A DNA stretch of 64,000 nucleotides from an uncultured Algibacter sp. (GTDB taxonomy: Bacteria; Bacteroidota; Bacteroidia; Flavobacteriales; Flavobacteriaceae): assembly GCF_947490405.1 (NCBI RefSeq), contig NZ_CANLGU010000001.1, forward strand, positions 806,001 to 870,000, given 5' to 3'. The notes under the pieces were generated by a model. It did not search any database. It worked only from the letters and a program-made list of their open reading frames with translations, and was not told where the DNA came from. The position numbers were made by a program, and so were the translations under genes. Positions 60,218 through 64,000 of this stretch are shown in pieces (positions within the stretch are counted from its first letter, which is position 1; every line of letters begins with the position of its first letter).

Positions 60218-60286
60218 AGGGTTAGATACATTTTATTAAGTACCTATTTGGCAAATATTTTCTGAGTTTATTAGAAGTTTTACATT

Positions 60287-60371
60287 GCGTTAGGGATTGT
60301 AATGGAAATCCTTTTTGTGAGGCACGAGCAAAAAGATTGTAATGGAAAGCCCGACCCTTGCGGTAACGCCC
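60287..60371 (+). repeat. GCGTTA-type interspersed repeat, copy E
   Basis: It begins GCGTTAGGGATTGTAATGG and ends AAAGCCCGACCCTTGCG then GTAACGCCC. The middle hairpin is CTTTTTG paired with CAAAAAG. It lies between mfd and the TerB-like gene. Confidence 0.85.
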
Positions 60372-60443
60372 AAAAAATTAAAATTTCAATTTAAAATCTT
60401 AAAAAAAATATGTAGGTTTGCAGCACTAAAAAAAGATGTATAT

Positions 60444-60875
60444 ATGTCGTTTTCAAATTTATTTGACGGAGGTTTTAAAAAGCGTAATAAAAGCCATTTT
60501 GCTGCAATTGTGCGTGTAGCTATGGCTGATGGTGTAATCACTGATGATGAAAAGGCTTTTTTGGATCGATTAGCACAGCGTTTAGAGATTGGTGAAAACG
60601 ACTACAAAGCTATTTTAAAAGATTACAATTCACATCCAATTAATCCACCTGTATCATATGATTTACGTTTAGAGCGTTTATACGATTTAGTTCGAATGAT
60701 ACATGTAGATACCATTACTGGTGATGATGAAATGTCGCTTTTGAAAAAGATTGCAGTGGGACTTGGGTTTCATGCAGTGAACGTAAAATACATTATCGAT
60801 AAAGCATTAACGCTAGTAAGTAACGGTGCTGATTTGGATGATTTTGTGGACCAAATAAAGAATATGAATAGATAA
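60444..60875 (+). CDS. TerB-like helical protein
   Basis: The 143-residue protein is a compact helical bundle of the TerB/DjlA-N type: HFAAIVRVAMADGVITDDEKAFLDRLAQRL with the acidic metal-binding ADG..D motif, and VDTITGDDEMSLLKKIAVGLG repeating it. Function unknown; a tellurite role should not be assumed. The ATG at 60444 was chosen because a longer frame reads through the repeat at 60287. A -7 box TAGGTTTG lies at 60413-60420. Confidence 0.85.
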   Translation: MSFSNLFDGGFKKRNKSHFAAIVRVAMADGVITDDEKAFLDRLAQRLEIGENDYKAILKDYNSHPINPPVSYDLRLERLYDLVRMIHVDTITGDDEMSLLKKIAVGLGFHAVNVKYIIDKALTLVSNGADLDDFVDQIKNMNR

Positions 60876-60940: not shown

Positions 60941-62674
60941 TTATTTTGGATTGAAAAGCACTTCCTTTTCTTTGTATTCTAGCCTATTTGGTAATGCAAT
61001 AGATGAAAATTCTAAATGTAATACACGACGCCTTTTTTGAACTTTCGATGCTGATGACGCATGCAACAACAAAGGCTTTATAAGCTGTACACCTCCTGAA
61101 GCTACTTCGCTTGCAAAAGGTATAGAATTGGTAGTTATTAATTTAATTTCATCATCATTTAAACGTTTGTTGTGCGATCCTGGAATAACTTTTAGCGCTC
61201 CATTTTTTTCGGTGGTATCATCTAAATGAATACGCATGGAAAATGTATTTTTTGAAATTTCTTCTGGCGGACAAACACTTATCACACCTTTTTTGTTAGT
61301 CCATGAACTAAAACCTACAGTTTCTATTTTTTCTAAAACATTTATTGGCACATCTTGATGCCATGTTACGTACCAATTATCTTGCGGGGACTTATCAAAA
61401 TAAATAGCCTTGGTTAAAAAAGCGTTTTTATCTATTGATTTTACGAGTTTTTTGAAGTTTTTGTTGAATAGAATATCTTTTATTTCAGGTAATTTCTGGA
61501 GGACTTCCCGCATGCCGAATGCTTGCTCATTATTTTGTTTGATATAAGTATCAAATTTGGCTTTAAGTTTTCTGATGTCGCGTTTGGTATAGACATGGTT
61601 TAGAATTCCGAACCCTTTATACTCAAGTCTTTTTGCAATGGTACGGAGGTTTTTATCATTAATTTCGGTTTCATAAACATCTACAGCATCATACAAACGT
61701 TCTTTTATGTTGCGTTTTAAACGTTCTGGAGCAATAACTTTTATACCTTCACCCAAACTCAGTATTTCTTTTTCTAATTCGAAATTATGCTGAACTTCTA
61801 AAGAAATGGTTACGCCATAATGGTCTCTACTCACTTCTTTTTGCGTGTGATGAAAAGGCTTAGTTAATACATAAGGTGCTTGTTTATGGTTGATGTACAG
61901 CAACATATTTTCGGGTTTTAAATTTGGACTAACAGAGACACCAATGGCATTTTTATAAAAGTTTTCAGAATTAAAATTTGAATCTAACAGAAATGATTTT
62001 AAACTTTTTTCAATTGAAATCATTCTATCTAAAGCCAAATTCATAATACCTTCATGTTTTTGTCGCTTACCAATAACAAACCATCTATTTCTAAATTCTT
62101 TTAATAAATAAGGATGAAACGTAAATGTGCTTTCTTGTCGGGCTTTAAACGATTGATACGTAATTTCAATAGCTTGCTTTTTTAAAATGAACTGGTAAAG
62201 TGGATCTAGAAATTTTAGTCCTTTTAAGTTTTCATTTTTTTCAAAATCAATTAATGATTTTTCTTGTGTTTTTTGGGTGTACACATGGTCTTCTAATTTC
62301 TGCACCATACTGCCTAGTTCCTCAAAATGAGAAAATCCTTGAAATTGTTTTAAAAATGAAACCGCCTCCGATAATTTTGTTAAATCTTGGTTGGAAATTG
62401 GGCTATTTGTAATGCTATAACTAGCGTCTTCATATTTATAAAATTTTCGCTCATAAACCACTATTGGTGCGTTATACCCTAACTTATCGCTTCGCATCAT
62501 TTGAATGTCTAGTTGCACCGTTCTTTTACTAACATCTATAGCTTTTCCTTCGTATTCGTAAAGTGCATCCGAAACTGCTTCAATTAAATCATTAAGCGTC
62601 CATTGTCTGAAATTATTTTGCAAACATTTATCAATGGTTTTATACCGGATTAATGCGTTTTTGTTTACTGCCAT
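60941..62674 (-). CDS. WYL-domain regulator fused to a phytanoyl-CoA-dioxygenase-like domain
   Basis: The 577-residue product joins two families. Residues 1-335 form a WYL transcriptional regulator: N-terminal winged helix (WTLNDLIEAVSDAL, then KRTVQLDIQMMRSDK), WYL domain (about 165-225, ITYQSFKARQESTF and RNRWFVIGKRQ) and WCX tail. From about 342 a PhyH-type Fe(II)/2-oxoglutarate oxygenase follows, with HxD at His439-Asp441 (WHQD), distal His538 (PLLLHASS) and RRR at 548-550. No stop or shift lies between. Two palindromes upstream may be its operator. Confidence 0.85.
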   Translation of the reverse strand: MAVNKNALIRYKTIDKCLQNNFRQWTLNDLIEAVSDALYEYEGKAIDVSKRTVQLDIQMMRSDKLGYNAPIVVYERKFYKYEDASYSITNSPISNQDLTKLSEAVSFLKQFQGFSHFEELGSMVQKLEDHVYTQKTQEKSLIDFEKNENLKGLKFLDPLYQFILKKQAIEITYQSFKARQESTFTFHPYLLKEFRNRWFVIGKRQKHEGIMNLALDRMISIEKSLKSFLLDSNFNSENFYKNAIGVSVSPNLKPENMLLYINHKQAPYVLTKPFHHTQKEVSRDHYGVTISLEVQHNFELEKEILSLGEGIKVIAPERLKRNIKERLYDAVDVYETEINDKNLRTIAKRLEYKGFGILNHVYTKRDIRKLKAKFDTYIKQNNEQAFGMREVLQKLPEIKDILFNKNFKKLVKSIDKNAFLTKAIYFDKSPQDNWYVTWHQDVPINVLEKIETVGFSSWTNKKGVISVCPPEEISKNTFSMRIHLDDTTEKNGALKVIPGSHNKRLNDDEIKLITTNSIPFASEVASGGVQLIKPLLLHASSASKVQKRRRVLHLEFSSIALPNRLEYKEKEVLFNPK

Positions 62675-62680
62675 TTTCTG

Positions 62681-62734
62681 AAATATTTCTTCTAAATTAG
62701 AAGAAAATATTTATTACGCAAAAAGGTTGCGTAA
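62681..62734 (-). promoter_or_regulatory. Two palindromes upstream of the WYL-PhyH gene
   Basis: 62681-62712 is a 32-base near-palindrome (AAATATTTCTTCTAA with its inverse, one base of asymmetry) starting seven bases upstream of the start codon. 62714-62734 is a perfect TTACGCAA-N5-TTGCGTAA. Both lie in the divergent gap before the TPR gene. Likely operators for the WYL protein; not tested. Confidence 0.65.
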
Positions 62735-62812: not shown

Positions 62813-64000
62813 ATGGCAAACAAAGAAGATAAAGAATATCAAAAAATTAATACTGAAGCATGGGGGTTTTATGATAAAGATAATCTTGATAAGGCTTTTG
62901 ACACAAGCAAGAAGATAATTGAATTATATCCAAAAAAAATTGGAGGTTATTATCTTTCAGGAATCATAGAATATGACAAAAGAAATTTTGTAAAGTCAGT
63001 TGAGTATTTCAAAAATGCCTTAGAAGTTGATTCTGAGAATAAAGCAGGTGGTTTTATTCATTATTGGTTAGGAAAAAATTACAATGAAAAAAGTAAAGAG
63101 TGGTTTAATGATTTTGTAGATAACCCTGTTTACAGTTTTGATATGGCTAGATTTTCATTTGAAAAATCAACTGAATATGAAGAATATCCTAGAGGCACAG
63201 TCGTTGAGTTAATTCGAATATTTAGAAAAGACAACTACAAGTTAATCACAGTTTTAAAAAATGCTTTAAAAAACTTCTCTAGTGATATTGATTTTTTAAT
63301 AAGGTATTCTCGTGCTTTAACACAAATTAATAAAAATGAAGATGCTTATAATATTGTTTCTACTAAAGCAAATGAATTAAACTCTCCTAGCCTTTATTAT
63401 GAGGGAGGTATGATACTTTATAAAAGTAAGGATTACAAGTCGGCAATATTAAATTTTGAAAAAGCTGTAACAGTTTCTAGTGGAAAACCTGAAAATGTTG
63501 CAGGTATATATTGTCAAATTGCAGATGCATATTATAAAGAAAAGAATTTTGAAAATGCATCTAAAAACTTTAATTATGCTTTTGAATTAATTATAAGCTA
63601 TAACTTAAAAAATACAGATTATCCTAATAATGCGTTTTGGCTTGCATTATTTGGAATAATAATTACCGTGGTAGAAGTAAAACAAATTGATGAACTTAAT
63701 AGTTCTATTTTAAAAATTCCATTTACAGAAGAAACTATAGACTATATTGAATCATTTCATGAATTTACCATTGAAACTGGTTCAGGAGTAGTATTTAGTT
63801 ATGAAAATGATTTTAGCATCAGAAAGTGTATTACAGAATTAAATAAATTTAAAAAAAAGTCAAATGATCCAATCACATTAAGTAAATTAAATTGGCTAAA
63901 AGCTATTCTATACTATCAAGACAATAAACATGAATATAGTCTCAACGCCTTAAGAGAAGTTTTAAAAAATGATAATAATAGTGACAGTTATATATACAAA
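62813..64000 (+). CDS. TPR-repeat protein (truncated by the window end)
   Basis: An open frame of 396 codons from ATG 62813 that runs off the window. The protein consists of tetratricopeptide repeats (YYLSGIIEYDKRNFVKSVEYFKNAL style units, and YKSKDYKSAILNFEKAV, YYKEKNFENASKNFNYAFEL), so it is an adaptor-type helical solenoid. There is no signal peptide, so it is cytoplasmic. It diverges from the WYL-PhyH gene and may share its control region. The domain beyond the edge is not visible. Confidence 0.82.
   Translation, partial: MANKEDKEYQKINTEAWGFYDKDNLDKAFDTSKKIIELYPKKIGGYYLSGIIEYDKRNFVKSVEYFKNALEVDSENKAGGFIHYWLGKNYNEKSKEWFNDFVDNPVYSFDMARFSFEKSTEYEEYPRGTVVELIRIFRKDNYKLITVLKNALKNFSSDIDFLIRYSRALTQINKNEDAYNIVSTKANELNSPSLYYEGGMILYKSKDYKSAILNFEKAVTVSSGKPENVAGIYCQIADAYYKEKNFENASKNFNYAFELIISYNLKNTDYPNNAFWLALFGIIITVVEVKQIDELNSSILKIPFTEETIDYIESFHEFTIETGSGVVFSYENDFSIRKCITELNKFKKKSNDPITLSKLNWLKAILYYQDNKHEYSLNALREVLKNDNNSDSYIYK

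Follow-up and report, generated by a model that had tools for sequence, protein, structure and literature searches.

We identified a gene in which a WYL-type transcription regulator is fused in frame to a PhyH-type oxygenase domain. It probably encodes the transcription factor of an RNA-repair and tRNA-replacement regulon in Bacteroidota, working by the mechanism proposed below. The gene lies in the window, the 64,000-nucleotide stretch of DNA from an uncultured Algibacter sp. that was analyzed, and has the following parts.

60941–62674, minus strand: HTH-WYL-WCX-PhyH fusion gene, 577 codons in one frame
62405–62674, minus strand: predicted winged-HTH DNA-binding region, residues 1–90 (helices 5–19, 27–42 and 50–61), from the AlphaFold2 model and its Foldseek alignment to the full-length DriD-DNA complexes 8tp8 and 8tpk
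62009–62212, minus strand: WYL domain, residues 155–222 (PF13280, E 3e-12)
61694–61888, minus strand: WCX domain, residues 263–327 (PF25583, E 1.7e-6)
60944–61675, minus strand: PhyH-fold domain, about residues 334–577 (PF05721, E 1.7e-11; VIA-align to SnoK over 334–574)
61022–61432, minus strand: Pfam PhyH match (PF05721), residues 415–551
61352–61360, minus strand: H439-Q-D441 metal-binding motif, invariant in 41 intact fusions
61061–61063, minus strand: H538, distal metal ligand, invariant in the same 41 fusions
61028–61030, minus strand: R549, predicted 2-oxoglutarate-binding arginine 11 residues past H538, likewise invariant in the 41

The first-pass annotation of this DNA had read a single 577-residue frame as a WYL regulator followed by a PhyH domain, without giving its strand. 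The frame is intact on the minus strand and the order of domains is borne out by a Pfam search of the 577-amino acid protein, in which WYL, WCX and PhyH alone scored above the curated cut-offs and no HTH model matched. An AlphaFold2 model made with 63 aligned sequences has a mean pLDDT of 86 over the full chain and a pTM of 0.64. The top Foldseek matches to the regulator half are DriD (8tp8, E 3.8e-14) and PafBC (9fnd, E 4.9e-12), and the identity of this half as a ligand-sensing WYL regulator, also claimed earlier, is well supported. The N-terminus is helical in the model and aligns with DNA-bound DriD over 353 columns, but with an rmsd of 19 and TM scores of 0.30–0.50. DriD and PafBC share the HTH-WYL-WCX architecture, are activators according to the titles of their PDB entries, and respond to single-stranded DNA or DNA damage. 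We know of no oxygenase domain in either protein.

The C-terminal domain combines the PF05721 match with a double-stranded beta-helix fold, and its assignment to PhyH holds in profile and fold searches alike. Its best match by VIA-align is SnoK (Z 22.4, rmsd 2.5, 215 residues). The fold and the HxD...H...R set are shared with the PhyH oxygenases SnoK, AviO1, EvdMO1, proline hydroxylase H11, EctD and human PHYHD1. However, these are mostly stand-alone enzymes acting on small molecules, and identity to them is 11–21% over the aligned parts. In the window's genome the fusion protein is the sole PhyH-family match at E 0.001. The only sequence relative that phmmer found in the PDB is 4xaa (E 0.031), and a full-length profile retrieved from the PDB WYL proteins only (7 sequences), giving no substrate hint for the PhyH domain. 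The fold matches also include RESC14 (E 6e-10, rank 26), described in passages of PMC12936278 as a PhyH pseudoenzyme of the trypanosome RNA-editing complex. Because RESC14 ranks amid many ordinary oxygenases, we regard it as a parallel and claim no kinship.

Across Bacteroidota we found 48 distinct fusion proteins in a single frame, the window's included (56 fused loci minus 8 identical copies; L083 is truncated at its 5' end by the contig), and a misassembly or missed stop was therefore rejected. The fusion occurs in the Flavobacteriaceae, Cryomorphaceae, Crocinitomicaceae, Saprospiraceae, Roseivirgaceae, Fulvivirgaceae and other Bacteroidota. Homologues are thus not always two genes parted by a stop near codon 340, the arrangement that the first-pass annotation had set against its own reading, although the same homologue set does contain 54 WYL-only loci ending near that codon. 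These are a related form and give no sign of a misread stop in the window gene. The public-genome scan kept 80 loci out of 93 relatives.

A search for the same fusion in 299 genomes of the family Flavobacteriaceae identified it in full in 13 (11 intact, 2 with a decayed metal site), with one partial example at a contig end (G079) and a WYL-only orthologue in 24. A WYL orthologue was defined by at least 47% identity to the WYL half, the cut lying in a gap between 47% and 39%. The resulting 38 regulator genomes count the partial example in and leave out paralogues (39% or less) and N-terminal-only matches in G047, G010, G134 and G208 (32–48% identity over about 100–120 residues).

On the WYL tree, from which L001, L015, L111 and identical rows were left out, the fused and WYL-only states require 5 changes, at least 2 of them on starred branches; a single origin of the fusion is not shown by this tree. 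In Winogradskyella a single syntenic place is occupied by the fusion or by a distant WYL-only protein, depending on the species, which looks like a swap of the regulator (L096, L097, L099, L103 and L106 versus L036 and L044). Since the syntenic WYL-only proteins form a distant clade, recent loss of the domain was rejected and replacement of the regulator is likelier.

As the first-pass annotation had claimed, the PhyH domain keeps its HxD motif, distal histidine and arginine. The window protein and 40 other intact fusions (alignment A1) agree at H439-x-D441, H538 and R549, and we take R549, from its place in the PhyH family, to bind 2-oxoglutarate. All four residues are kept in 41 of the 48 fusions. 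The other seven have lost D441 together with at least one of H439, H538 and R549. These degenerate fusions require 6 changes on the WYL tree, at least 2 on starred branches, so the metal site has probably decayed more than once. A model of one of them, L067, in which H538 and R549 are kept, has the PhyH fold (EvdMO1, Z 20.7, 185 residues, rmsd 2.6), the alignment behind it having also contained intact fusions. Because these seven have lost metal-site residues and five of the six tested retain the palindrome described below, oxygenase catalysis is probably not required everywhere.

Standalone homologues of the PhyH domain (L114–L128) occur in 7 of the 24 WYL-only genomes, in 8 of 275 others and in none of the 13 fusion genomes. 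This count of 15 excludes C-terminal matches that were short or weak (G072, G172, G212, G011, G184, G222 and G018), and the alignment took in 13 of the 15. Many pocket positions are common to the fusions and these 13 proteins (34–42% identity), which together with the conserved active site of 41 fusions suggests chemistry, judged from sequence. The neighborhoods of the 15 genes offer no clue to a substrate, as no other family is common to three or more of them.

The setting of the gene is RNA repair. The first-pass annotation, right about the architecture and the active-site motifs, missed this setting, most of which lies outside the window. Two short elements and one gene face the regulator within the window.

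62715–62733, no strand: candidate operator TRCGCA-N7-TGCGYA, one of two exact matches in the genome
62747–62750, plus strand: TTTG of a predicted promoter in the divergent direction, at an offset of 31 bases counted from where the operator's 17-base core starts
62813–64000, plus strand: divergent TPR gene (ORF, 835 amino acids), running past the window to 65320 in window numbering

Genes for tRNA-Pro, tRNA-Tyr and RtcB follow beyond the window edge, 3.7–3.9 kb after the start of the TPR gene. The rtcB gene is the only RtcB match in the genome (PF01139, E 2.8e-39) and is divergent, its start lying 4.0 kb from the fusion gene. An RtcB gene with a dedicated adjacent regulator is the mark of rtc RNA-repair systems; here the only RtcB gene is divergent from the fusion gene and has a palindrome in common with it, an arrangement that would place rtcB under its control.

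Clustering of neighboring genes showed that the regulators usually stand opposite a divergent RNA-repair operon encoding RtcB, slipin, PrfH (RF-1), TROVE/Ro60 and RlaP. RtcB was found beside the fusion in 28 of 43 loci and beside the WYL-only gene in 16 of 38, and slipin in 24 of 43 and 12 of 38 (flanks of up to 6 kb, shorter at contig ends). Among the 299 genomes of the family, RtcB is present in all 38 with a WYL orthologue versus 26 of the 261 others; G047 and G010, whose N-terminal-only matches reach 47–48%, are without RtcB, and counting both would give 38 of 40. In 11 of 13 fusion genomes, and in 21 of 24 with a WYL-only orthologue, RtcB is encoded divergently no more than about 7 kb from the regulator. 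The two Aureivirga fusions are not linked to rtcB. As such operons also occur with WYL-only relatives, the system can do without the PhyH domain. We also observed a family of about 200 amino acids (L044:5262–5864 and relatives), with no Pfam match above the cut-off, whose members stand first among the genes facing the regulator in several loci and adjoin 9 of 90 operator sites.

Palindromes upstream of the gene had been pointed out earlier, and two are indeed real, but only one is conserved in the manner of an operator. The other, a second perfect palindrome (TTTCTTCTAA-A-TTAGAAGAAA, 62686–62706) between the operator and the start codon, is not found at the same place in relatives and ranks among the three best inverted repeats in this genome only. 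The motif TRCGCA-N7-TGCGYA has exactly two matches in the 3.69 Mb of the window's genome, where a reversed-pattern control has no match. The first site lies between the fusion gene and the divergent TPR gene, and the second 3.6 kb further on, before tRNA-Pro(UGG), tRNA-Tyr(GUA) and rtcB.

In relatives the palindrome lies upstream of the regulator genes, typically near -60. We found its core, RCGCA-N7-TGCGY, in the 300 bp upstream of the gene for 32 of the 41 intact fusions (9 lack it there), for 5 of 6 degenerate ones and for 29 of 53 WYL-only proteins, compared with 6 of 20,200 in resampled sequence. These counts place L013, which has the same protein as L069, with the degenerate fusions and set aside L015, partial at a contig end; the unadjusted counts are 33/42, 4/5 and 30/54. 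At least one exact site is present in 36 of the 38 regulator genomes (84 sites) and in 40 of the 261 genomes without a regulator (44 sites), while G028 and G033 have a regulator and no exact site anywhere in the genome. The reversed pattern occurs in 24 of the 299 genomes, so the sites in regulator-less genomes are partly background. In G259 and G176 the regulator is on another contig and rtcB still carries the operator. The fetched loci, themselves picked by their regulator gene, contain 90 exact sites, of which 21 have no ORF facing them within 450 bp and 5 have only other genes there; tRNA genes were left out of this tally, so some of the 21 may face tRNAs. Near the WYL-only regulator of G127, five operator copies precede neighboring genes (L135:3155–10427), possibly an enlarged regulon, and RtcB is 173 kb away.

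The operator keeps a fixed distance from a promoter-like element. On the divergent side TTTG is found at offset 31 in 45 of 61 loci and at offsets 24–40 in 49 of 61, the latter against 3.9 on average and 9 at most after shuffling. The spacing is the same at the two sites of the window's genome (62747–62750, and 6393–6396 of L112). Bacteroidota promoters consist of a -33 element and a -7 box, TAnnTTTG. With TTTG at this fixed spacing the site would overlie the region of the -33 element, which fits either an activator standing in for the -33 contact or a repressor blocking it. The strict box TAnnTTTG shows no clear enrichment near the operator (4/61 on the regulator side and 3/61 on the other; means of 2.9 and 1.3 after shuffling). 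TTTG by itself is no commoner than background on the regulator side (7/61 vs 6.1), where TTTTAT/TTTTTA is somewhat raised (15/61 vs 6.8, maximum 13). Because no TTTG box is enriched on the regulator's own side, autoregulation rests on the position of the site.

The tRNA genes are a recurrent part of these loci. We surveyed the 67 of 80 public-scan loci with at least 3 kb of upstream sequence (34 intact fusions, 30 WYL-only and 3 degenerate). Divergent tRNA genes, up to 12 in a row, are present in 16 of the 34 fusion loci versus 2 of the 30 WYL-only loci and in none of the three degenerate loci; the window's genome is a further case. The association with PhyH has a Fisher p of 6e-4, but because it comes down to 2–4 independent contrasts it is suggestive only and not significant given the tree. 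A tRNA-Tyr(GUA) is present in 16 of the 18 loci with divergent tRNAs. In L053 (9373–11493) and L057 (8202–10259) arrays of 10 and 12 tRNAs lie downstream of the fusion gene, not opposite it, with one four-base anticodon call each.

In the window's genome no other copy of the operon tRNA-Tyr was found at the DNA level, and it differs from two tRNA-Tyr genes elsewhere. The operon tRNA-Pro(UGG) (L112:6482–6555) reads TGGA at the anticodon versus TGGG in two other tRNA-Pro(UGG) genes, having A instead of G after the anticodon; its score with the tRNA model is only 32 bits. The housekeeping tRNAs were read from 20 fetched stretches out of 37 tRNA matches. By analogy with the Anabaena TrcR regulon, variant spare tRNAs beside an RtcB ligase suggest replacement as well as repair, and their difference from the housekeeping copies examined would tie the switch to tRNA replacement, beyond ligation.

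By comparison with known systems, the fusion regulator most likely does the job of RtcR in enterobacteria and of TrcR in Anabaena by means of a different protein family. Passages of PMC7790460 describe RtcR, the sigma-54 activator of rtcBA in E. coli and Salmonella, as divergent beside the rtcB operon that it controls, and as sensing RNA damage through a CARF domain that binds 5' tRNA halves with a 2',3'-cyclic phosphate. However, RtcR has a CARF-AAA+-HTH architecture and acts with sigma-54, whereas Pfam finds no CARF, AAA+ or sigma-54 contact domain in the fusion. TrcR of Anabaena sp. PCC 7120, according to passages of PMC10272220, is autoregulated and controls a spare-tRNA (trn) operon, rtcB and a slipin gene, a set of targets like that proposed here. 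However, TrcR is a ribbon-helix-helix repressor with a different DNA site, and WYL is not mentioned in the text of that paper. Passages of PMC4012209 describe WYL proteins fused to a nuclease, helicase or nucleotidyltransferase domain; they resemble the window protein in kind, and no oxygenase is named in that text.

In the mechanism that we propose, the HTH would bind TRCGCA-N7-TGCGYA beside its own gene and before tRNA-Pro, tRNA-Tyr and rtcB, and the WYL-WCX part would sense a product of RNA damage. The ligand-bound factor, placed at a fixed distance upstream of the promoter-like TTTG, would then activate the operon as DriD and PafBC do with single-stranded DNA; activation is favored over repression by this analogy. 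The operon would supply spare tRNAs and RtcB ligase, joined in relatives by PrfH, slipin, Ro60 and RlaP. For the PhyH domain the likeliest role is one in cis on the signal: intact versions may oxidize either the ligand itself or a metabolite linked to it, thereby setting or ending the response, or may make the response dependent on O2, Fe and 2-oxoglutarate. In a more specific version, which is speculative and to which we give little weight, the putative oxygenase would act on an RNA-damage signal (a tRNA fragment end or derived nucleotide) held by the WYL domain of the same chain, so that the factor both reads and clears its own inducer and the decayed lineages have become pure sensors.

The contribution of the oxygenase domain can also be read in other ways. 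It may be a sensor: binding of 2-oxoglutarate, Fe, O2 or part of an RNA would be relayed to the WYL dimer as a conformational change, and catalysis would be incidental and losable. We consider this possible, if doubtful: the seven fusions of 48 without D441 and at least one further metal-site or arginine residue, the PhyH fold kept in the model of degenerate L067 (again, from an alignment that also had intact fusions), the 6 changes of the degenerate state on the tree (at least 2 starred) with the operator core kept in 5 of 6, and the precedent of RESC14 as a pseudoenzyme in passages of PMC12936278 all agree with it, but the four residues are intact in 41 of the 48, and the standalone PhyH homologues have many of the same pocket positions. 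That same invariance of the active site, in 41 intact fusions from many families of Bacteroidota, also argues against the domain being a decayed or neutral passenger whose fold is kept for dimer stability and which has no part in the response. Loss of the metal site in 7 of 48 and the WYL-only relatives opposite the same kind of operon, 29 of 53 with the same operator core, would suit such a passenger, which we nevertheless think distinctly unlikely.

The domain might instead be an effector, an oxygenase that modifies tRNA or other RNA, or processes RNA ends, on the same polypeptide as its own regulator. The linked genes are those of RNA repair and tRNA, divergent tRNAs being present at 16 of the 34 fusion loci surveyed and at 2 of the 30 WYL-only ones, and the distribution of standalone PhyH genes (7/24 WYL-only genomes, 8/275 others, 0/13 fusion genomes) points the same way. 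However, the tRNA association amounts to 2–4 independent contrasts and is not significant on the tree, the 15 standalone neighborhoods have no other family common to at least three, and the closest solved folds are small-molecule oxygenases; an effector seems unlikely. That PhyH relatives of known structure are mostly metabolite enzymes could also mean that the regulator controls a catabolic or metabolite pathway and is near RNA-repair genes incidentally. This is highly improbable and already largely refuted by the presence of RtcB in 38/38 regulator genomes, by the divergent arrangement, and by the operator that precedes rtcB also where the two genes are not linked.

A literature search, including the passages at hand of PMC4012209, PMC9503650, PMC7790460 and PMC7824862, found WYL not joined to RNA repair in Bacteroidota, and those of PMC1586002 on PrfH contain nothing on regulators. 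No paper in the search, which did not cover the survey of Burroughs and Aravind from 2016, joins WYL to a PhyH domain or phytanoyl-CoA dioxygenase. We do not claim priority for the fusion, because that survey may already record a WYL gene or this fusion; it reportedly shows operons in which RtcB is accompanied by SPFH genes, TROVE genes and a tRNA-like RNA. To our knowledge, RNA-damage sensing in bacteria without RtcR is poorly understood, and a fusion switch that appears to govern an RNA-repair and tRNA kit suggests a new way for a cell to sense such damage. The analysis yields a specific candidate regulator, an exact operator and a two-site regulon in Bacteroidota, as well as an example of an oxygenase domain built into a putative RNA-repair switch. 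The intact, metal-site-lost and WYL-only forms provide a natural series for asking what the oxygenase adds.

In an Rfam search of 11 loci at gathering cut-offs, no Y RNA or other RNA was found besides tRNAs, rRNAs and Flavo-1. The Flavo-1 sRNA (RF01705, 56 bits) lies within the window at 60278–60360 on the plus strand, about 0.6 kb past the 3' end of the fusion gene, and overlaps the start of a 177-amino acid ORF at 60342–60875.
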